In this document: positions 26,924-63,216 of the stretch, piece by piece | Layout: the number at the start of each line of letters is the position of its first letter | Numbering within the stretch: the stretch's first letter is position 1 | From: Marinibacterium profundimaris | GTDB taxonomy: Bacteria; Pseudomonadota; Alphaproteobacteria; Rhodobacterales; Rhodobacteraceae | Assembly: GCF_002210095.1 (NCBI RefSeq) | Contig: NZ_AQQR01000002.1 | Coordinates: 496,001 to 560,000 of the forward strand | DNA length: 64,000 nt | Direction: 5' to 3' | The notes under the pieces: generated by a model | What the model was told of the DNA's origin: nothing | Seen by the model: only the letters and a program-made list of their open reading frames with translations | Database searches by the model: none | Translations under genes and position numbers: made by a program

Positions 26924-28657
26924 ATGACCCAAAAACCGATCCGCCCCGGTCTCGAAGAACTGCGCGCCGCCCGGCGGGAAAGCCGCGGTCTCTACTGGAT
27001 GGTGGGAATATTCAGCTTTTTTGCGAACCTTTTGATGCTGACGGGGCCGCTTTACATGCTCCAGGTCTATGACCGGGTGCTGGGCTCCCGGTCCGAGGAG
27101 ACGCTGATCGCGCTATCCCTTCTGGTTGTATTTCTCTACGGCACAATGGGGGTGCTGGATTACAGCCGGGGCCGGATCATGGCCCGCGCCGGTGCGCGGT
27201 TCCAGAATCGCCTGGACCGCCGCGTATTCGACGCGATGGTGCGGCGCTCTGCCGTGATGCCGGATTCGAAATCGCAGACCGGGCTGGCCGATCTGGAATC
27301 GGTGCAGCGGATGATCGGCGCGCCGGTGCTGATGGCGACATTCGACATTCCGTGGACGCCGATCTTCCTGGCCGGGATCATGCTGTTCCACCCCTGGCTC
27401 GGCTATCTCGCGCTTGGCGGCGGCGGCATCCTGATCCTGATCACCTTCCTGAACCAGTGGTTCTCGCGCGGGCCGCAGGCTGCTGCGTCGATGGCCGGGC
27501 AAAGATCGCAGATCATGTCCGAGGAGATCCGCAACGAGGCCGAGATGGTCACCGCCATGGGCATGCGCGACGCCGCCTTCAAGCGCTGGCAGCAGTCCCG
27601 GGACGAGGCCCTGTCGGGCAGCGTCGGCGCCGCCGACATCAGCGGCACCTTCACCTCGATGACCAAGACGCTGCGGCTGTTCCTGCAATCGGCGATGCTG
27701 GGCCTTGGCGCCTATCTCGTGCTGCAGAACGAACTGACGCCGGGTGCGATGATCGCGGGGTCGATCCTGCTGGGCCGCGCGCTGGCCCCGATCGAGCTGG
27801 CCATCGGCCAGTGGCAGATCGTGCAGCGCGGCATGCGCGGCTGGGCCAACCTGGCCGAACTGCTGCGCGACACCCCGCCCGAAAGCACGCGGACCAAGCT
27901 GCCGACGCCCAAGGCGCAGATGTCGGTGCGCGCCGTGACCGTTCTGCCCCCGGGCGAGAAGCGCGCGACGCTCAAGAACCTCAGCTTCGATGTGAATCCG
28001 GGCGAGGCGATCGGCATCATCGGCCCGTCGGGCGCGGGGAAATCGACGCTGGCGCGGACACTTACCGGGGTCTGGGCGCCGGCGGGCGGCACCGTGCGGC
28101 TGGACGGCGCGGGCATCGACCAGTACGGCCCCGACGACCTGGGCCGGCACATCGGCTACCTGCCGCAGCGCGTGCAGCTGTTCGAGGGCACGATCGCCCA
28201 GAACATCGCGCGGCTGAGCGAGACCCCCGATCCCGCCAAGGTGGTCGAGGCGGCCAAGAAATCCGCCGCCCACGACATGATCGTGCAGTTGCCCGAAGGC
28301 TATGACACGCGGGTCCGGGCCGGCGGCGGCCGGCTCTCGGGCGGGCAGATGCAGCGGATCGGCCTGGCGCGGGCGCTCTATGACAACCCGGTGATCCTGA
28401 TCCTGGACGAGCCGAACTCGAACCTCGACAACGAGGGATCGCAGGCGCTGAACCACGCGATCCGGGTGATGAAGGAACAGGGCCGCGCGGCGCTGATCAT
28501 GGCGCACCGGCCGGCGGCGATCCAGGAATGCGACAAGCTGCTGGTTCTGGATCAGGGCATGCGGGCGGCCTTTGGTCCCAAGGACGAGGTGCTGCGCTCG
28601 ATGGTCTCCAACCACGCGGAAATCGGCAAGACGGCCGCAATGGGAGGCGTACAATGA
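26924..28657 (+). CDS. Type I secretion system permease/ATPase (PrtD/HlyB-like)
   Basis: The inner-membrane ABC exporter of a type I secretion system (577 residues). Six-helix membrane domain about 20-300; nucleotide-binding domain with Walker [10 protein letters not shown] near 366, signature LSGGQ near 471 and Walker [14 protein letters not shown] near 490. There is no N-terminal C39 peptidase domain, so it fits the PrtD group that exports RTX proteases and similar proteins with a C-terminal signal. ATGA overlap with the adaptor gene. No RTX substrate or TolC gene lies nearby. Confidence 0.92.
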
Positions 28658-54289: not shown

Positions 54290-54925
54290 CTAATTGTCCG
54301 CCGATGCCGCACCCGCAACGGAAAGCCGCCGGCTTGCGGCATTGGTGCGGCGGGCCAGCTGTCCCAGCAGGTTGGCCCCGGTGGAGCCCAGGGCCCGGCT
54401 GTCCTCGGGCGCGAAGAGGCCCAGCACGACAAGCTGGTCGTTGACGACGAAGGCGCCGCGCCAGTGGATCTCGTCCAGGCCCGGCAGAGGCGGCACACCT
54501 GCGGCGCGGACCATGGGCACGGCGCCGCTCCGCGCCTCGGCCACGGCATTGTCCGGATAGGCGTCGGCGATGGTGCGGGCGGTGATCGGCGTGTCGCCCC
54601 GGGTCCAGGGCGTGGTGGTCACGGTCATCACCGCCGGGCTTTGCCCCGACAGCGTGGCAAAGGCGGTCTGCGGCGACAGCCGGCTGCACAACGCCAGCAT
54701 GGCAAAGCCATCCCGTCCCGAGGCGTCGATCGTGGTGGGGTCGATGCAGAAGCCCGTGGGCGCCGTCAGCGCCACCCGGCCGTCGCCCAGCACGGTGGAG
54801 GTCACCGCCGCCTGGCCACCGGAGGCCGGCACATCCAGCGCCAGTCCTCCGTCTTCGGTGCAGCCGGCCAGGATCATCATCAGACCCAGGCCGGCCACGA
54901 GGCCCTTACAGGTCCATGTAGTCAT
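54290..54925 (-). CDS. Hypothetical lipoprotein overlapping ilvD
   Basis: A 211-residue exported lipoprotein: MTTWTCKGLVAGLGLMMILAGC with lipobox LAGC at about 19-22. The mature part (LTAPTGFCIDPTTIDASGRDGFAMLALCSRL... DELHW-like GLDEIHWRGAFVVNDQLVVLGLFAPEDS) has three to four cysteines. Not assigned to a family. Its first 20 bases overlap the 3' end of ilvD, so it is read from the ilvD transcript, an unexpected link between branched-chain amino-acid synthesis and an envelope lipoprotein. Confidence 0.75.
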   Translation of the reverse strand: MTTWTCKGLVAGLGLMMILAGCTEDGGLALDVPASGGQAAVTSTVLGDGRVALTAPTGFCIDPTTIDASGRDGFAMLALCSRLSPQTAFATLSGQSPAVMTVTTTPWTRGDTPITARTIADAYPDNAVAEARSGAVPMVRAAGVPPLPGLDEIHWRGAFVVNDQLVVLGLFAPEDSRALGSTGANLLGQLARRTNAASRRLSVAGAASADN

Positions 54926-56669
54926 GCGTTTCCGCCTGCGCGCCGGGGTGGGTCACCGCGCCCTTGTAGGTCGCACCCACAAGCTGCGCGTATTTCCACA
55001 GGGCGCCGGAGGCGTAGTTGGTCGGGCGGGCGCCTGGCCAGGCCTCTTTCCGCTTGGCCAGTTCCTCGTCCGACAGATCGACCGACAGTTCGCCGCTGAC
55101 GGCGTCGATGGTGATCACGTCGCCGGTCTTCAGCAGTGCGATCGGGCCGCCATGGGCCGATTCCGGCCCCACGTGACCGACGCAGAAGCCCCGCGTCGCG
55201 CCCGAGAACCGCCCGTCGGTGATCAGGGCGACCTTCTTGCCCATGCCCTGGCCCGACAGGGCCGCGGTGGTGGCCAGCATCTCGCGCATGCCGGGGCCGC
55301 CCGCGGGGCCCTCGTTGCGGATGACGATGACGTCGCCTTCCTTGTAGGTGCGCGCCTTTACCGCGGCAAAGGCCTCTTCCTCGCTTTCGAAGACGCGGGC
55401 CGGGCCCACGAACCGCTGGTGCTGCGGCTCGATCCCCGCGACCTTCACGATCGCGCCTTCGGGGGCCAGGTTGCCCTTCAGGCCGACAACGCCGCCGGTC
55501 TTGGTCAGCGGCGTCTCGATCGGATAGATCACGCGGCCGTCGGCATTGCGGGTGATCTTGTCCAGCTCCTCGCCGATGGTCTCGCCGGTGGCGGTCATGC
55601 AGTCTTCGTGGATCAGGCCCGCCTTGCGCAGTTCCTTCATCACCACGGGGATGCCTCCGGCGTCGTAAAGGTCCTTGGCGACGAACTGGCCGCCCGGCTT
55701 GAGATCGACGAAATAGGGGGTGTCGCGGAAAATCTCGCAGACGTCATCGAGGAAGAAGTCGATCCCCGCCTCATGCGCGATGGCCGGCAGGTGCAGGCCC
55801 GCGTTGGTCGACCCGCCTGTGCAGGCCACGACCCGCGCGGCGTTTTCCAGCGATTTGCGGGTCACCACGTCGCGCGCGCGGATGTTCTTCTCGATCAGGT
55901 CCATGACCGCCTGGCCAGACGCCTCGGCATACTGGTCGCGGCTCTCGTAAGGCGCTGGCATGCCCGAGGAGTTCATCAGCGCCAGGCCGATCGCCTCGGA
56001 GACGCAGGCCATGGTGTTGGCGGTGAACTGGCCGCCGCAGGCGCCCGCGCTCGGGCAGGCCACGCGTTCCAGCATGTCCAGCGCGGCATCCGACATCTCG
56101 TGGTTCTGGTGGCGGCCGACGGCTTCGAACATGTCCTGCACGGTCAGGTCGCGGGTGCGGAAATCTTCCGGGATCTCGTCGACCTGCGGCGCCTTGCCCG
56201 GCAGGATCGAGCCGCCGTAGATGAAGACCGACGGGACGTTCAGTCGCACCATGGCCATCATCATCCCCGGGAGCGACTTGTCGCACCCGGCCAGGCCCAC
56301 GATCGCGTCGTAGCAATGGCCGCGCATCGTCAGCTCCACCGTGTCGGCGATCGCCTCGCGCGAGGCGAGCGAAGAGCGCATGCCCTCGTGGCCCATGGCG
56401 ATGCCGTCGGTCACGGTGATGGTGGTGAATTCGCGCGGGGTTCCGGACGCCGCCTTGACGCCCAGCTTCACGGCCTGGGCCTGGCGACTGAGCGAGATAT
56501 TGCAGGGCGCGGCTTCGTTCCAGCAGGTGGCAACACCCACCAGCGGCTGATGAATTTCTTCATCCGACAGCCCCATGGCGTACATGTACGACCGGTGCGG
56601 CGCGCGCTCCGGGCCTTCCGTAACATGACGGCTGGGCAGTTTGGACTTGTCGAACTTGCGCTTGAGCAT
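54906..56669 (-). CDS. ilvD: Dihydroxy-acid dehydratase
   Basis: An iron-sulfur enzyme of branched-chain amino-acid synthesis (587 residues), dehydrating 2,3-dihydroxyisovalerate and its methyl homologue. Cluster cysteines appear in ATCWNEAAPCN, LAGCDKSLPGM and CTGGSTNAGLH. Also seen: CPSAGACGGQFTANTMACVSEAIGLAL and GRFSGATRGFCVGHVGPE. ATG 56669 follows GGGAGG; an earlier ATG at 56702 adds an unlikely 11 residues. It diverges from the degenerate ABC gene. Confidence 0.96.
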   Translation of the reverse strand: MLKRKFDKSKLPSRHVTEGPERAPHRSYMYAMGLSDEEIHQPLVGVATCWNEAAPCNISLSRQAQAVKLGVKAASGTPREFTTITVTDGIAMGHEGMRSSLASREAIADTVELTMRGHCYDAIVGLAGCDKSLPGMMMAMVRLNVPSVFIYGGSILPGKAPQVDEIPEDFRTRDLTVQDMFEAVGRHQNHEMSDAALDMLERVACPSAGACGGQFTANTMACVSEAIGLALMNSSGMPAPYESRDQYAEASGQAVMDLIEKNIRARDVVTRKSLENAARVVACTGGSTNAGLHLPAIAHEAGIDFFLDDVCEIFRDTPYFVDLKPGGQFVAKDLYDAGGIPVVMKELRKAGLIHEDCMTATGETIGEELDKITRNADGRVIYPIETPLTKTGGVVGLKGNLAPEGAIVKVAGIEPQHQRFVGPARVFESEEEAFAAVKARTYKEGDVIVIRNEGPAGGPGMREMLATTAALSGQGMGKKVALITDGRFSGATRGFCVGHVGPESAHGGPIALLKTGDVITIDAVSGELSVDLSDEELAKRKEAWPGARPTNYASGALWKYAQLVGATYKGAVTHPGAQAETHDYMDL

Positions 56670-56907
56670 GGCGGCCTCCCCTGGCTGGTGGTCCCATGCC
56701 AATAGCTCTGCCCAGACCGGCAGACAAGGGGAAGTGGCGGCAGGCGTCCCGCGCGCGCCGATGTGCCGGAGCTTCTGTGCACCTCCGACAGTCCCTTGTG
56801 CGGAAACTTGTTTTTAACCGAACTGGGGCCTACGTTCTTGCATCCCGCCTGCTTCCCGCATGCCTTCCACCGGGCGCCCGCCGCCTCTCCAAATTTCAGG
56901 CCCCGCG

Positions 56908-59900
56908 ATGGACCGCTCGCTCTTCGCCTTCATCTGGCGCTACTCGAAACGCGATCAGCTCGTATTGCTCGGGCTGACGATCCTGTCGTTCCCGTTTCTC
57001 TACGTCTCGCTCGAACTGCCGAAGCGGATCATCAACGACGCGATCGGCTCGTCGACCTCGAACATCACGGTCCTGGGCACGCAGCTTTCGCAGATCGAAT
57101 ACCTCGTGGTGCTCTGCGTCCTGTTCCTGGCGGCCGTCGTGGCCTCGGGCCTCTTCAAGATGCGGATCAACACCTACAAGGGCACCGTGTCCGAACGGAT
57201 GCTGCGGCGCCTGCGCTACCAGCTGATGAGCCGGATGATGCGCTTCCCGGCGCCCTATTTCCGCACCACGTCCCAGGGCGAACTGGTGTCGATGGTCACA
57301 GCCGAGGCCGAGCCGATGGGCGGGCTGATGGGCGACCTGATCGCGCAGCCGGTGTTCCAGGCGGGGCAGATGCTGACCATCGTGACCTTCCTGTTCATGC
57401 AGAGCGTCTGGTTCGGGCTGGCCTCGATCGCGCTGATCCCGCTGCAGGCCTGGCTGATCCCGATGCTGCAGCGCCAGATCAATCTGCTGAACAAGGACCG
57501 CATCGTCGAGATCCGGCACCTGTCGTCCGAGATCGGCGAGACGGCGGCGGGCATCTCGGACCTGCGCGCCAACGGCGGCTGGCGCTATCGCTCGGCGCTT
57601 CTGACGGATCGGCTGGGCCGGATCTTCGAGATCCGGTTCAAGATCTACCAGAAGAAGTTCTTCATGAAGTTCCTCAACAACTTCATCACCCAGCTAACGC
57701 CGTTCTTCTTCTACCTCGTCGGCGGCTACCTGGCGATCCAGGGCCAGATCAGCGTCGGCGCCCTGGTCGCCGCGCTGGCCGCCTACAAGGACATCGCCGC
57801 GCCGTGGAAGGAACTGCTGACCTACTACAACCAGGTGCAGGACATGTCGCTGCGCTGGACGGTTGTGACCGACCGCTTCGCGCCGCGCTCGATGATCGAG
57901 GACCGGCTGCTCAACGACATCCCCGAAGAGATCCCGCACCTGACGGGCGATATCGTGCTGAAGGACGTCACCGTCACCGATCAGGACGGCAACATGGTGC
58001 TTGAGGATCTCGACCTGACGATCCCCGGCAAAAGCCGGCTGGCGGTGCAGGGAGGGACCGCCGCGGAACGCGCGGCCTTCGCCGGCCTGCTCACGCGTGA
58101 GATCCTTCCGACCCGCGGCAAGGTCGAGATCGGCGGGCAGGACCTGGCCACATTGCACCAGGCGGTGATCGCGGCGCGAATCGGCTATGCCCATTCGCAG
58201 CCCTACCTTTTCGACGGCACGCTGGGGCAGAACCTGCTGATGCCCTTCGGCATGCACCCGGGCGAGTCGCAGGACCCCGACTGGCCCAAAAGCCGCGCCG
58301 GGACCGAGGCGGTGCGCTCGGGCAATTGCCCCGATCCGCTGAATTCCGAATGGCTGGACCCGGGCGTCGGCGGCTATGCCGACCGCAACGAGGTCGGGTC
58401 CTGGTGGTTCAAGCTGATCCAGGCCATCGGCCAGGACGAAGAGATATTCCGCAAGGCCCTGCAGCTGCGGATCTCGCCCGAGGTTCACCCCGAACTGACC
58501 CGCGCCATCGTCGGCATGCGCGACGCGGTGCATGACCGCATCGTCGAGGCCGGTCTGGACGACATCGTGTTCCGTTTCGATCCCGACAAGTTCAACCCGG
58601 CGATCCCGCTGGGCGGCAACCTGCTGTTCGCCGCGCCGCGCAAGCCGCTGTCGACCGAAGGCATGGCCCAGGCCCGGCTGTTCCGCGACCTGATCCAGCG
58701 CGAAGGCCTGGGCACCGAGGCGCTCAACATCGGCCAGTCTGTGATCGACACGCTGAACCGCACCTTCGGTCACGACGGGATCGACCACCCGCTGTTCCGC
58801 CGTGTCGGGCTGGACCCGGATATCTACCGGCAGCTTGTCTCGATCGTGTCCAAGCGCCGCGTGAAGGGCGATGACAAGCTGGAGGATGACGAGCACCTGA
58901 TGCTGATGACGGTGCCCTTCACCCTGACCGCCGAACAGATCGGATCGGATTTCCCGGAACGCCTGAAGCAGAAGATCGTCAAGGTCCGCAACAGCCACCG
59001 CGAAACGCTGCGCCGCATGGGCGGGGATCTCTTCGTGCCCGTCACGCCCGAAACCTACCTGCCGCGGCTGACGGTGCTGGAAAACGCGCTTTACGGCCGG
59101 ATCTCGATGCATGCCGGCGCGCGCGCGGACGAGGTCGAGGATGTCGTGGCCGAGATGCTCAGCGACGAGGGGCTGCGCTGGCGGATCGCGCGGCTGATCT
59201 TCGACCTGCAGACCGGGATCGGCGGCGCCAACCTGCCCAAGACCCTGCAGGAACGCGCGGCCTTCAGCCGGGCGGCGCTGAAGCGGCCCGACGTCCTGGT
59301 CTTTGACCGGGTGCTGGAAAGCCACGATTCCGAGGCCCGCGCCGCCGTGCGCACCAACCTCAAGGAACTGCTGCCCGACGCGACCATGATCTTCATGGAG
59401 GCGAAGTTCAAACACCCGTCGCAATACGACAAGCTGATCGTGCTGAAGGACGGCCGCATCGACGGCGAGCGCACGTTGGGCGGTGGCGACGATGCCGAGG
59501 GCAACGAGGAATTTCGCCACAAGCTGCGCGCCATCGCCGGGACCGACCTGTTCTCGCGGCTGGATGCCCGCAACCAGCGGCTGCTGGCCTTCTCGGCCAG
59601 CTGGTATCGCGCCAAGCCCGGGCAGGTGATCTTTCGCGCCGGGCAGCCGGCCGATGCCGTCTATCTCTGCGTTTCGGGCAAGGCGCAGGTGCAATGGCCC
59701 GATGCCGACCCGAAGGACAAGCCGCTGACCGTGGTCGAACCGGGCCGCGTGATCGGCGACCTGGCGATCATCGAACGCTCCGACCGGGTCACCGACCTTG
59801 TCGCACTGGAAAAATCCCGCTTCCTGCGCATCGGCGCCGAGGAGTTCCGCGACGTGATCGAGGCCGACTCGACCGTGGCCATGGCGCTGCTGGAAACCGT

Positions 59901-60021
59901 GGCCGGCCACCTGTCGGCGCTGGCGGGCTTCCTCGACCGCTCGGGCGTGGACATCAAGAAGATCACCGCCGAGGCCGATGGCGATGCGCTGGACGAGATC
60001 ACCCAGGACGAGGATGCCTGA
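56908..60021 (+). CDS. Degenerate ABC exporter with inserted region and cyclic-nucleotide-binding domain
   Basis: A 1037-residue membrane protein. Residues about 15-320 form a type IV ABC exporter membrane domain. An ABC domain follows, but its motifs are eroded: Walker A reads VQGGTAAERAAF (380-391), no GKS/T; the Q-loop is kept (AHSQPYLFDGTLGQNLL, 428-444); about 330 unfamiliar residues follow, including a second Q-loop-like TVLENALYG (722-730); the signature reads LPKTLQERAAFSRAAL (776-791); Walker B is VLVFD with Arg801 instead of the catalytic Glu; no switch His is evident. A CRP-like cyclic-nucleotide-binding domain covers about 890-1010 (GRVIGDLAIIERSDRVTD). ATP-driven transport is unlikely. 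It overlaps the CPBP protease gene by 8 bases. Confidence 0.78.
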   Translation: MDRSLFAFIWRYSKRDQLVLLGLTILSFPFLYVSLELPKRIINDAIGSSTSNITVLGTQLSQIEYLVVLCVLFLAAVVASGLFKMRINTYKGTVSERMLRRLRYQLMSRMMRFPAPYFRTTSQGELVSMVTAEAEPMGGLMGDLIAQPVFQAGQMLTIVTFLFMQSVWFGLASIALIPLQAWLIPMLQRQINLLNKDRIVEIRHLSSEIGETAAGISDLRANGGWRYRSALLTDRLGRIFEIRFKIYQKKFFMKFLNNFITQLTPFFFYLVGGYLAIQGQISVGALVAALAAYKDIAAPWKELLTYYNQVQDMSLRWTVVTDRFAPRSMIEDRLLNDIPEEIPHLTGDIVLKDVTVTDQDGNMVLEDLDLTIPGKSRLAVQGGTAAERAAFAGLLTREILPTRGKVEIGGQDLATLHQAVIAARIGYAHSQPYLFDGTLGQNLLMPFGMHPGESQDPDWPKSRAGTEAVRSGNCPDPLNSEWLDPGVGGYADRNEVGSWWFKLIQAIGQDEEIFRKALQLRISPEVHPELTRAIVGMRDAVHDRIVEAGLDDIVFRFDPDKFNPAIPLGGNLLFAAPRKPLSTEGMAQARLFRDLIQREGLGTEALNIGQSVIDTLNRTFGHDGIDHPLFRRVGLDPDIYRQLVSIVSKRRVKGDDKLEDDEHLMLMTVPFTLTAEQIGSDFPERLKQKIVKVRNSHRETLRRMGGDLFVPVTPETYLPRLTVLENALYGRISMHAGARADEVEDVVAEMLSDEGLRWRIARLIFDLQTGIGGANLPKTLQERAAFSRAALKRPDVLVFDRVLESHDSEARAAVRTNLKELLPDATMIFMEAKFKHPSQYDKLIVLKDGRIDGERTLGGGDDAEGNEEFRHKLRAIAGTDLFSRLDARNQRLLAFSASWYRAKPGQVIFRAGQPADAVYLCVSGKAQVQWPDADPKDKPLTVVEPGRVIGDLAIIERSDRVTDLVALEKSRFLRIGAEEFRDVIEADSTVAMALLETVAGHLSALAGFLDRSGVDIKKITAEADGDALDEITQDEDA

Positions 60022-60934
60022 TCCCGCGCGGTCTTCCGGGCCCGGCCTCGGCTGGGCCGCCCATGCGGGCTTTGTCGCGCCGGCCCGCGACCGGGCCGAG
60101 CTCTGGCGTCTGCCGCTGGGCCTTCTGGTGGTGGCGGCGACGGGGCTGGCGCTGAACGCGGTGCTGGCCGGCGCGTTGTCGGCGGTGTCGCCCGATTTCT
60201 GGCGCGGCGAGATCGCCACGGCCCGGGCGCCGGGGCAGACGCCGGCGTCGCTTCTGGTGCTGCTGACAACCTTCGCCTTCTTCGCCCTGGGCACCGGGCT
60301 GGCCGTGGTGATGGTCCACCGCCGCCCGGCGCCGACCCTTCTGGGCCCCCTGCGCGCCGCGGTCTCGCAATTCGGAGCGGTGCTGGCCATGCTGCTGCTG
60401 GTCGCACTGGCAATCGCCGTGCTGCCGCCCTGGCGTTCGGGCCTGGAGCCCGAGCCGAACCTGCCCTTCGGCACCTGGGCCGCGCTCTTGCCGCTGTCGC
60501 TGACCGCGCTGCTGATCCAGGTCGGCGCCGAAGAGGTGCTGTTCCGCGGCTATCTCCAGCAGCAGCTGGCCGCGCGGTTCGACAGCCCCTGGATCTGGAT
60601 CGGGGTGCCGTCGCTTCTGTTCGCCGCCGGCCATTACGTGCCGTCCGAGGCGGGCGAGAACGCGCTGCTGATCGCGGTCTGGGCGGCGGTCTTCGGCGTG
60701 CTGATGGCCGACCTGACCGCCCGCGCCGGCACGCTGGGCCCCGCCATCGCCGTGCACATGGCCAACAACGTCGTCGCCATCCTGCTGATTTCGGTCACCG
60801 ACGGGATGAGCGGCCTTGCGCTCTATGTCAGTGCCGGCGCCGCCGATCCCGAGCTGGTCCGCGCCTGGCTTCCGGTGGATTTCGCCACGATGGTGGTGTC
60901 CTGGCTGGCGGCCCGCCTGGCCCTGCGTCGCTGA
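60014..60934 (+). CDS. CPBP-family intramembrane metalloprotease
   Basis: A 306-residue polytopic membrane protein (about 8 helices). The CPBP (CAAX protease/bacteriocin-processing, Abi) motifs are GAEEVLFRGYLQQQLA (E-E-x3-R) and FAAGHYVPSEAG (F-x3-H), with a later HMANN. Members cleave peptides or act as immunity proteins. Start ATG 60014 overlaps the stop of the degenerate ABC gene by 8 bases, so the two are made together; cleavage or maturation of the partner or its ligand is a possible role. Confidence 0.85.
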   Translation: MPDPARSSGPGLGWAAHAGFVAPARDRAELWRLPLGLLVVAATGLALNAVLAGALSAVSPDFWRGEIATARAPGQTPASLLVLLTTFAFFALGTGLAVVMVHRRPAPTLLGPLRAAVSQFGAVLAMLLLVALAIAVLPPWRSGLEPEPNLPFGTWAALLPLSLTALLIQVGAEEVLFRGYLQQQLAARFDSPWIWIGVPSLLFAAGHYVPSEAGENALLIAVWAAVFGVLMADLTARAGTLGPAIAVHMANNVVAILLISVTDGMSGLALYVSAGAADPELVRAWLPVDFATMVVSWLAARLALRR

Positions 60935-60994: not shown

Positions 60995-61954
60995 ATGAAC
61001 TGGATCAACAATTTCGTCCGGCCGCGGATCAATTCGATCTTCTCGCGCCGTGAAACGCCGGAGAACCTGTGGCAGAAGTGCCCGGAATGCGGCACGATGC
61101 TGTTCCACAGGGAGCTGTCGGACAACCTCAACGTCTGCACGAACTGCAATCACCACATGGGGATCACCCCGCGTGACCGGTTCACGGACCTGTTCGACGG
61201 CGGCGTCTTCTCCGAGGTGGCCGTGCCCGAGCCCAAGGCCGACCCGCTGCACTTCCGCGACCAGAAACGCTATCCCGACCGCCTGCGCGCGGCCCAGAAG
61301 GGCACCGGCGAGAAAGAGGCGATGCTGGTCGCCACCGGCGAGATGGGGCGCACGCCGATCGTCGCCGCCGCTCAGGATTTCTCGTTCATGGCCGGGTCCA
61401 TGGGGATGTATGTCGGCAACGCCATCATCGCCGCCGCACAAGAGGCGGTGAAGCTGCGCCGGCCGCTGATCCTGTTCTCCGCCGCCGGCGGCGCGCGGAT
61501 GCAGGAAGGCATCCTGTCGCTGATGCAGATGCCGCGCACCACTGTCGCCGTGGAAATGGTGAAGGACGCGGGCCTGCCCTATATCGTCGTGCTGACCCAC
61601 CCGACCACGGGCGGGGTCACGGCCTCATATGCGATGCTGGGCGACGTCCATATCGCCGAGCCCAACGCGCTGATCTGCTTCGCCGGGCCGCGCGTGATCG
61701 AACAGACCATTCGCGAAAAGCTGCCCGATGGCTTCCAGCGGGCCGAATACCTGCTGGACCACGGCATGCTGGACCGGGTCACCCACCGGACCAAGATGAA
61801 GGACGAGCTGATCACCATCACGCGGATGCTGCTGAACATGCCGCCCGCCATCAAGGGTGACCTGCCCGCGCCCGATCCCGACACCACGCATGACACCACG
61901 TCCGGGGCCCCGGCCGAACCGGCGCCCGACAGCAAGGCCAGCCCCGCCGCATGA
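60995..61954 (+). CDS. accD: Acetyl-CoA carboxylase carboxyltransferase subunit beta
   Basis: Transfers carboxyl from biotin-BCCP to acetyl-CoA, first step of fatty acid synthesis (319 residues). Four-Cys zinc finger Cys29, Cys32, Cys48, Cys51 (CPECG...NVCTNC). Carboxyltransferase core: FSFMAGSMGMYVGNAI, SAAGGARMQEGILSLMQMPRTT and LTHPTTGGVTASYAMLGDVHIAEP. A Pro/Ala/Asp-rich tail follows. ATGA overlap with folC, a widely kept order. Confidence 0.97.
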   Translation: MNWINNFVRPRINSIFSRRETPENLWQKCPECGTMLFHRELSDNLNVCTNCNHHMGITPRDRFTDLFDGGVFSEVAVPEPKADPLHFRDQKRYPDRLRAAQKGTGEKEAMLVATGEMGRTPIVAAAQDFSFMAGSMGMYVGNAIIAAAQEAVKLRRPLILFSAAGGARMQEGILSLMQMPRTTVAVEMVKDAGLPYIVVLTHPTTGGVTASYAMLGDVHIAEPNALICFAGPRVIEQTIREKLPDGFQRAEYLLDHGMLDRVTHRTKMKDELITITRMLLNMPPAIKGDLPAPDPDTTHDTTSGAPAEPAPDSKASPAA

Positions 61955-63216
61955 CCGCGCAAGGTTCCGATCTCATCCTCGAACGGATGATGACGCTGCA
62001 CCCCAAGGTGATCGACCTCACCCTGGACCGGATGTGGCGCCTGCTTGAGGCCCTTGGCCATCCCGAACGCCGCCTGCCCCCGGTGATCCACCTGGCGGGC
62101 ACCAACGGCAAGGGCTCGACCCAGGCGATGATCCGCGCCGGTCTCGAGGGCGCGGGCAAATCCGTGCACGCCTATACTTCGCCGCACCTGGCGCGGTTCC
62201 ACGAACGCGTGCGCCTGGCCGGAGAGCTGATCTCCGAAGCCGCGCTGATCAACGCGCTGGACCGCTGCTACGAGGCCAACGGCGGGGTCGAGATCACCTA
62301 TTTCGAGATCACCACCTGCGCCGCCCTTCTCGCCTTTGCCGAGACCCCGGCGGATTACACCCTGCTCGAGGTCGGGCTGGGCGGGCGCCTGGACGCGACC
62401 AACGTGATCGACACGCCGGTCGCGACGGTCATCACCCCGGTGTCGATGGATCACGAGGCGTTCCTCGGCGACACGCTGGAGGCGATCGCGGCCGAAAAGG
62501 CCGGCATCCTCAAGCGCGGCGTGCCCTGCGCGGTGACCCGCCAGGATCCCCGCGCGCTCGAGGTCATCGAACGCGCCGCCGCGCGTGCCGGGGCGTCGCT
62601 GCTTGTGCAGGGCGAACACTGGCACGTTGGCGAGGAACACGGCCGGCTGGTCTATCAGGACGAGACCGGTCTGCTGGATCTGCCCCTGCCCGCGCTGCGC
62701 GGCCGCCACCAGCTGGACAATGCCGGCGCCACCCTGACGGTGCTGCGCCAGCTCGGCATCGGCGAGGCGGGCTGCCGGGCGGCGATGGAAAACGTCATCT
62801 GGCCCGCCCGGATGCAGCGCCTGACCGAAGGCCCGCTGGTCGAAGCGGCCGGCGATCGCGAGCTCTGGCTCGACGGCGGCCACAATCCCGCGGCCGGCGA
62901 GGCCCTAGGCGACCTGCTGGGCGGCCTGCCGCCGCGCCCGACCGTGCTGATCTCGGGCATGATGAACACCAAGGATTGCACCGGCTTCCTGCGCCCTCTT
63001 GCCTCCCGCGCCGACCGCCTGATCGCGGTGCCGGTCCCGGGCGAGGAAAACGGGCTGGATCCGGAGAGCCTTGCCGAAAGCGCGCGATCCGTGGGCCTGG
63101 CCGCCGAGGTCGCGGCCAGCACCGAGGCCGCCGTGGCGTCCGCCGGGGACGCCGAGCGGATCGTGATCTGCGGCTCGCTCTACCTGGCGGGGTCGGTGCT
63201 GAAACGGAACGGGTAA
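61951..63216 (+). CDS. folC: Bifunctional folylpolyglutamate/dihydrofolate synthase
   Basis: Adds glutamate to dihydropteroate and to folates, using ATP (421 residues). Mur-ligase-like: P-loop LAGTNGKGSTQAMI near 46, HAYTSPHLARFHERVRL, LEVGLGGRLDATN, SMDHEAFLGDTLEAIAAEKAGILK, and the C-terminal LDGGHNPAAGEALGDLL. Start overlaps the accD stop (ATGA). Followed by copy 6 of the intergenic repeat. Confidence 0.96.
   Translation: MTAQGSDLILERMMTLHPKVIDLTLDRMWRLLEALGHPERRLPPVIHLAGTNGKGSTQAMIRAGLEGAGKSVHAYTSPHLARFHERVRLAGELISEAALINALDRCYEANGGVEITYFEITTCAALLAFAETPADYTLLEVGLGGRLDATNVIDTPVATVITPVSMDHEAFLGDTLEAIAAEKAGILKRGVPCAVTRQDPRALEVIERAAARAGASLLVQGEHWHVGEEHGRLVYQDETGLLDLPLPALRGRHQLDNAGATLTVLRQLGIGEAGCRAAMENVIWPARMQRLTEGPLVEAAGDRELWLDGGHNPAAGEALGDLLGGLPPRPTVLISGMMNTKDCTGFLRPLASRADRLIAVPVPGEENGLDPESLAESARSVGLAAEVAASTEAAVASAGDAERIVICGSLYLAGSVLKRNG

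Follow-up and report, generated by a model that had tools for sequence, protein, structure and literature searches.

The frame at 56908-60021 of the window, a 64,000-nucleotide stretch of Marinibacterium profundimaris DNA (contig NZ_AQQR01000002.1, positions 496,001 to 560,000), encodes a 1037-residue homologue of ATP-binding cassette (ABC) exporters. It belongs to a family in which the ATPase domain is non-catalytic and enlarged and which is tied to a conserved surface-glycan operon. We consider it probable that the family supplies a conserved surface-glycan system with its membrane component, most likely an exporter or flippase, whose ATPase domain is non-catalytic and which was ancestrally controlled by cyclic nucleotides. 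Such a protein may help to move a protective surface polysaccharide without the usual use of ATP; the movement of glycan would then be powered by an ion gradient or by another ATPase and be controlled by cAMP or a similar nucleotide.

ATPase motifs and the repeated module

Two alignments were examined. The first contained 82 rows, namely the window protein, its paralogue L002, and 80 loci from a genome contig scan in which the best 80 of 377 relatives were kept (best-segment identity 55-77%); 79 of the 80 loci span residue 1 to at least residue 989, and L028 begins at a contig edge. The second, alignment A1, contained 66 rows from 68 references (24 of the A-type to which the window protein belongs, 4 of the B-type, and 38 others), with L128 and L135 left out; L111 had been dropped earlier as a near-duplicate of L108, and L028 is a fragment. 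The ATG at 56908 was preferred to that at 56860 as the start of the frame because M1 is conserved in at least 90% of alignment A1. The features of the protein, including its transmembrane domain (TMD), the parts of its ATPase or nucleotide-binding domain (NBD), and its cyclic-nucleotide (cNMP)-binding domain, are as follows.

56908..60021 (+): A-type protein, an ABC-exporter homologue whose ATPase domain is non-catalytic, whose helical module is duplicated, and which ends in a cNMP domain (Pfam, alignments, model)
56908..57897 (+): exporter-type TMD, residues 1-330, the best-conserved part of the protein (Pfam, model, identity comparison)
57940..58257 (+): ATPase domain part 1, residues 345-450, equivalent to canonical Walker A to Q-loop (hhalign)
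58051..58077 (+): Walker A position, residues 382-390, GGTAAERAA, without GK[ST] (alignments)
58177..58245 (+): Q-loop copy 1, residues 424-446, with Ser430 at the Gln position (alignments, hhalign)
58258..58998 (+): insert, residues 451-697 (model, hhalign)
58540..58752 (+): Q-loop/helical module copy 2, residues 545-615 (hhalign match to residues 701-771)
58999..59475 (+): ATPase domain part 2, residues 698-856, equivalent to canonical Q-loop to C-terminus (hhalign)
59008..59220 (+): Q-loop/helical module copy 3, residues 701-771 (profile comparison)
59233..59265 (+): signature position, LPKTLQERAAF, residues 776-786 (sequence, alignment A1)
59293..59310 (+): Walker B position, VLVFDR, residues 796-801, with Arg at the catalytic Glu position (sequence, alignment A1)
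59545..59922 (+): cNMP-binding (CRP effector-type) domain, approximately residues 880-1005, phosphate-binding cassette eroded (Pfam, model, cassette listing)

The exporter-type membrane domain and the CRP-like C-terminal domain proposed in the first-pass annotation were both recovered by Pfam, as ABC_membrane (PF00664, residues 42-290, 1.4e-20) and cNMP_binding (PF00027, residues 902-986, 5e-16). The match to ABC_tran was weak, covering only residues 365-442 at 18.4 bits, below the cut-off of 25; NCBIfam exporter models matched mainly up to residue ∼445, and other ABC models matched residues 693-852 or 746-847. An AlphaFold2 model of the protein had a mean pLDDT of 85 and a pTM of 0.71. In the PDB search with Foldseek, P-glycoproteins ranked top and superposed poorly; the best half-transporters were TmrAB, a cyclic glucan transporter, PCAT1, and TM287/288. 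For TmrAB (chain 6rai_B) the E-value was 6.5e-15, and the TM-score was 0.62 when taken by target and 0.36 when taken by query.

The catalytic motifs have been lost throughout the close relatives aligned. The Walker A lysine was found in none of the 82 aligned rows, its position being occupied by an arginine (Arg388) in 82/82, with Glu387 in 81/82. As that annotation had read from this one sequence, Walker A lacks GKS/T, LSGGQ is replaced by LPKTLQERAAF, and Walker B is followed by Arg (D800, then R801). Its statement that a Q-loop is kept holds for the region and not for the glutamine, which is Ser430 here. Overall, the window protein retains only the Walker B Asp (D800) and has no GK[ST], Gln, LSGGQ, catalytic Glu, or switch His. 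The Walker A Lys, Q-loop Gln, catalytic Glu, and switch His were each present in 0/28 A/B-type rows of alignment A1, and no row (0/66) carried all seven scored ATPase residues together. Among the 38 other rows, K was kept in 22, S/T in 4, Q in 4, the signature S in 17, D in 7, E in 17, and H in 13; the Walker B Asp thus occurs in 19/24 A-type rows compared to 7/38 of the others, in which Asn (25) is the commonest residue. The homologue from Sinorhizobium meliloti also has no Walker A Lys and has Asn at the Walker B Asp position. Because 79/80 loci are near full length and none of the 82 rows has the Walker A lysine, a gene broken by chance or by sequencing error was ruled out; the search for close homologues with intact motifs found none in the 82-row alignment.

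The distribution of conservation differs from that of an ordinary exporter family. Mean pairwise identities of the TMD and the NBD were 77% and 56-63%, respectively, for the A-type proteins and 53% and 39-41% for the others. The window includes a second ABC exporter frame (26924-28657) with intact Walker A and LSGGQ motifs, and this frame was used to seed a control family of 30 sequences, 21 of which match both simple motif patterns. The control showed the reverse pattern (TMD 28%, NBD 43%), a comparison that is valid only for the direction of the difference because the control includes distant paralogues.

Profile comparison by hhalign against ten canonical NBDs taken from the fetched loci indicated that residues 345-450 (probability 99.8) and 698-856 (99.9) jointly form one canonical NBD. 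The cytosolic part has grown by ∼250 residues; our estimate of ∼250-285 extra residues is lower than the ∼330 earlier placed between Q-loop and signature. Residues 545-615 (copy 2) matched residues 701-771 (copy 3) at 98.7, with values of at most 2.9 for 20 column shuffles and at most 8.4 for slices outside the repeats. Weaker matches of copy 2 were obtained with two copy-1 slices (57.6 and 62.5), the stretch after copy 1 (29.5), a slice overlapping copy 3 (25.6), and the canonical NBDs (66.2), and copy 1 gave short matches of 16 and 26 columns to copies 2 and 3 (79.5 and 88.2, respectively). On these profile matches, one duplication of the Q-loop/helical module appears well supported, and a third copy, corresponding to the original Q-loop, is likely. 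The second Q-loop-like stretch noted earlier at residues 722-730 is real, lies inside the third copy, and has another counterpart at ∼555-577, but it does not represent the remains of a whole second NBD. That possibility was rejected because the Q-loop/helical module alone is repeated; residues 610-700 and 447-545 scored 0.3% each against canonical NBDs. Structure prediction showed the insert (residues 451-697) to be helical for the most part.

Distribution of the family and its cNMP domain

A relative was present in 96 of the 289 alphaproteobacterial genomes sampled (E ≤1e-30), and in a sample of the phylum 17 of 249 genomes had a match (E ≤1e-25); of these 17, all but one belong to the class. 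In a midpoint-rooted tree of residues 1-857, built without L028, the A-type (support 0.998), the B-type (0.988), and the two together (0.967) lie within a clade of 30 fused proteins (0.976); one more fusion, L097, lies outside it, and the tag of L120 as having a separate cNMP domain is unconfirmed. A B paralogue was found in 21 of 22 A-type genomes, the genomes having been sorted by hand, with the partial A-type matches in G531, G593, and G629 not counted as A.

The cNMP domain is encoded by its own frame, as a rule directly downstream, in 30 of the 35 non-Rhodobacteraceae loci read. The phosphate-binding cassette of such domains has the motif GE...R[TS]A, residues of which contact the nucleotide. 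In the separate frames, which number 34 with near-duplicates and comprise 29 distinct cassettes, GE was present in 32/34, R in 34/34, and R[TS]A in 33/34. The fused domains of the A-type have GD in 24/24, keep R in 24/24, and have R[TS]A in 0/24; in the four B-type rows (L140 included) GE is present and R[TS]A is absent. The nucleotide cassette is, as judged from these residues, eroded in the lineage of the window protein, although its fold is recovered in the model, where the strands (897-976) lead into a long helix (988-1011).

Frames similar to the Rhizobium Pop5 cyclase were detected in 7 of 70 fetched stretches, and Pfam confirmed the identity of five (all but L161 and L172). In L153, L155, and L169 a class III cyclase frame immediately adjoins the ABC and cNMP genes, and in L177 one stands farther off; the matches in L142, L161, and L172 are more distant. 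In Rhizobium and S. meliloti, too, a class III cyclase is encoded close to the cluster. In the M. profundimaris genome itself, a B-type paralogue with 49% identity is encoded near a HAMP-domain class III cyclase (L142, G000:C3, 7679-10732 and 11597-13561), and the frame between the two is similar to a DUF3307 protein of another genome.

Homologues consisting of the membrane domain only (323-358 amino acids) were also observed, one of them in the same genome (L003, G000:C56:18243-19139) and the others at L136-L139 and L141. PF00664 was the sole Pfam match for these six proteins, with L139 below its cut-off. By a crude distance measure, no intact NBD frame was found within ∼2 kb in 9 of 10 TMD-only stretches (of eleven, with L191 left out).

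Association with a glycosyltransferase operon

In the fetched stretches, the glycan operon has the order GT28a-GT4a-GT4b-histidine phosphatase-GT28b-deacetylase (GT, glycosyltransferase) and is often divergent from the ABC gene; the polysaccharide deacetylase was labelled by eye and has no Pfam match. The operon is reduced to GT28a-GT4a-GT28b in Rhizobium and Sinorhizobium. Among the 289 genomes of the class, 92 have both the family and GT28a, 4 have only the ABC gene, 4 have only GT28a, and 189 have neither; when four weak GT matches were dropped the counts became 90, 6, 2, and 191, respectively. For the 149 Rhodobacteraceae genomes the corresponding counts were 31, 0, 5, and 113 when 36 of 42 GT matches were counted (E <1e-100; G536, G548, G577, G584, G613, and G614 dropped) and 31, 0, 11, and 107 with all 42. 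At least two operon genes occur in the same fetched stretch as the ABC gene at 25 of 35 non-Rhodobacteraceae loci (L147-L181), and the Rhizobium and S. meliloti relatives adjoin GT28a, GT4a, and GT28b. In the Rhodobacteraceae the A-type gene is not adjacent to the operon. In M. profundimaris, contig C7 (L196) carries genes with each of the six operon labels and, in addition, a methyltransferase gene. The B paralogue and GT28a share a contig, ∼17-40 kb apart, in 8 of 26 B genomes; the one such stretch scanned, in G388, has metabolism and transport genes in between. On gene content and order, the glycosyltransferase operon appears a better partner of the protein than the CPBP protease encoded next to it. 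Genes for a Yej-like peptide importer were seen near the operon at many loci (L196-L198, L211-L212, L222, and others), and in G388 a gene for an MscS-type channel stands between the Yej-like importer set and the operon, with similar frames in other Rhodobacteraceae.

In plasmid records, members of the family and GT28a both occur on replicons of Rhizobium and Sinorhizobium. The gene order in S. meliloti R14 is Yej-like importer, GT28a, GT4a, GT28b, methyltransferase, ABC, cNMP, FkbM methyltransferase, and LacI; the labels GT4b, phosphatase, and deacetylase were not found in this stretch or in Rhizobium Pop5. The R14 GT28a gene (L222, 7286-8634) is split over two frames in the record, which may explain its absence from the gene listing. 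From the gene order and the LacI gene SMb21272, the S. meliloti relative would lie within the interval smb21252-smb21271, and counting back from SMb21272 would make the homologue SMb21269 and the cNMP gene SMb21270. According to the sections of PMC10128002 drawn on here, nine genes in this interval are needed for an uncharacterised surface polysaccharide, PPP, the minimal inhibitory concentration of phazolicin is 0.18 μg/mL for smb21252 and smb21265 mutants versus 1.47 μg/mL, and cAMP is reported as a regulator of genes potentially involved in PPP; an excerpt of PMC10315480 adds that predation up-regulates seven of the nine PPP genes. The S. meliloti homologue and its cNMP gene adjoin GT28a, GT4a, and GT28b. 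In the Rhodobacterales, by comparison, the operon and the A-type gene are unlinked, the cNMP domain is part of the A-type protein, the gene occurs in A and B copies, and the operon contains more genes.

MsbA2 of S. meliloti (SMb21191), an ABC exporter encoded beside glycosyltransferases and thought, in the passages used from PMC3687685 and PMC12239276, to export an unknown polysaccharide, was rejected as the homologue. It belongs to a different pSymB operon (SMb21188-SMb21191, ∼938 kb), and there is no cNMP gene among the four genes that those passages name. None of the S. meliloti tags searched for occurs in the main text of PMC5539429, and literature searches on the domain layout found no published description of this protein. 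The earlier view that no described system has this layout therefore stands for the protein itself but not for its relatives, which by gene order appear to fall within the PPP interval described in PMC10128002.

Proposed mechanism and alternatives

In the mechanism that we propose, the membrane domain retains the exporter fold, held there by strong selection, and the ATPase domain is non-catalytic and enlarged, with the Q-loop/helical module recurring, probably three times. At most loci outside the Rhodobacteraceae, cyclic nucleotide would be reported to the transporter by a separate protein of the CRP-effector type, which has a canonical cassette and in a few lineages is encoded next to a class III cyclase; in the lineage of the window, the cNMP protein is fused to the C-terminus and its cassette is eroded. 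Ligand control is plausible because the cNMP domain is carried. We regard as unlikely a bolder version of this mechanism in which cyclic-nucleotide-gated glycan exporters work without ATP hydrolysis throughout the class, the NBD, enlarged through copying of the Q-loop/helical module, being a regulatory hub that links the CRP-type sensor to an ion-gradient-driven channel.

The type IV (ABCB-like) exporters TmrAB, PCAT1, and MsbA share with the window protein the transmembrane fold and the order of TMD then NBD. The window protein differs from them in the loss of catalytic motifs, the repeated Q-loop/helical module, and the C-terminal cNMP domain, and its family has a TMD more conserved than the NBD. 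SbmA/BacA has no NBD. Its membrane fold is related to the ABC TMD and is driven by the proton gradient, as stated in the available portion of PMC13316013, where the family is termed SLiPT; it may serve by analogy as a precedent for ATP-independent transport. No Pfam match to the SbmA/BacA family was found in the window protein or the six TMD-only homologues. A cNMP-type domain is likewise fused to an ABC exporter in HetC of Nostoc PCC 7120, which, in the parts of PMC10986499 used here, shows by analogy that such a domain can serve an exporter; HetC differs in that the domain is N-terminal and bound ppGpp rather than cAMP in assays, and in having a C39 peptidase and an essential ATPase residue. 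If our reading is true, this would be an ABC exporter family in which selection moved from the motor to the channel, with living members forming a series from motifs half-kept to lost and marking a route from two genes (transporter and cNMP sensor) to a single fused gene. The uncharacterised S. meliloti polysaccharide, which is reported to protect that species against a peptide antibiotic, would also gain a candidate for its transporter and one for a post-translational switch.

Several observations, in addition to the limit on the control comparison, weigh against this reading. Some family members may still bind or hydrolyse ATP, since the Walker A lysine survives in 22/38 non-Rhodobacterales-type rows, L113 retains six of the seven scored residues, and L094 and L120 retain five. 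Because its cassette is eroded, ligand control may have been lost in the A-type. Class III cyclases are common in these bacteria, and with so few stretches containing one the adjacency may be partly chance. The P-values for co-occurrence ignore phylogeny and shared ancestry, and the ABC gene may lie in the PPP interval without being one of the nine PPP genes.

Three alternatives were weighed. The first-pass annotation took the protein to be a former transporter turned into a gated sensor or scaffold; a former ABC exporter with ATPase residues lost in all close relatives aligned and a cNMP domain agrees with our results, and the sensor or scaffold role itself remains a rival. In this form, a non-transporting membrane platform would hold or gate the glycosyltransferases with the cNMP domain as input, which would suit both the loss of Lys, Gln, Glu, and His in 28/28 A/B-type rows and the additional ∼250 cytosolic residues. 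However, conservation is highest in the TMD, TMD-only homologues suggest that this domain has an activity of its own, and no other exporter gene was seen in the labelled operon stretches (where not all unlabelled frames were scanned). The link to glycan makes export or assembly likelier than a sensor or scaffold, to which we give roughly one chance in a few. A conventional ATP-driven exporter whose sites are unusual yet active, formed for example by A/B subunit pairing in the Rhodobacteraceae, would be in keeping with the closest folds being ABC exporters such as TmrAB, the co-occurrence of the A and B paralogues, and the motif retention in L113, but it is improbable: since both subunits lack the same Lys, Gln, Glu, and His, pairing A with B would leave the complex without a consensus site.

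The least probable alternative, to which we assign very little weight, is the two-part system suggested earlier, in which the ABC/cNMP protein and the CPBP protease work together. The frames do overlap by 8 bases as described (ATG 60014, TGA 60019-60021), CPBP is the next gene in 77 of the 80 contig loci, and the pair is conserved: among the 149 Rhodobacteraceae genomes, 22 have both, none has A without CPBP, 79 have CPBP without a full A-type gene, and 48 have neither (Fisher P 1e-4), an association that counts against our dismissal of the pair. These 79 of 101 CPBP genomes nevertheless mean that the protease is not mainly found with the A-type protein, and they weaken the case for a specific coupling. 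The same CPBP-accD-folC block was present in 12/12 loci read without an A-type gene (hand-picked from the 79), L084 and L086 have the protein without CPBP, and CPBP does not track the glycosyltransferase operon (28/8/73/40, P 0.16). We rejected CPBP as the specific partner, which it probably is not, while noting that every A-type genome has it. Insertion of the A gene upstream of a pre-existing CPBP-accD-folC block would explain the arrangement most simply, the coupling then being positional; CPBP is expected wherever A occurs if A entered an existing block. The neighbouring genes, apart from CPBP named by reading the sequence rather than by family search, are the following.

60014..60934 (+): CPBP intramembrane protease, overlapping the A-type frame by 8 bases (Pfam; conserved neighbour)
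60995..61954 (+): presumably accD-like, part of the CPBP-accD-folC block
61951..63216 (+): a gene that we take to be folC-like, in the same block
54906..56702 (-): presumably ilvD-like, the divergent upstream neighbour

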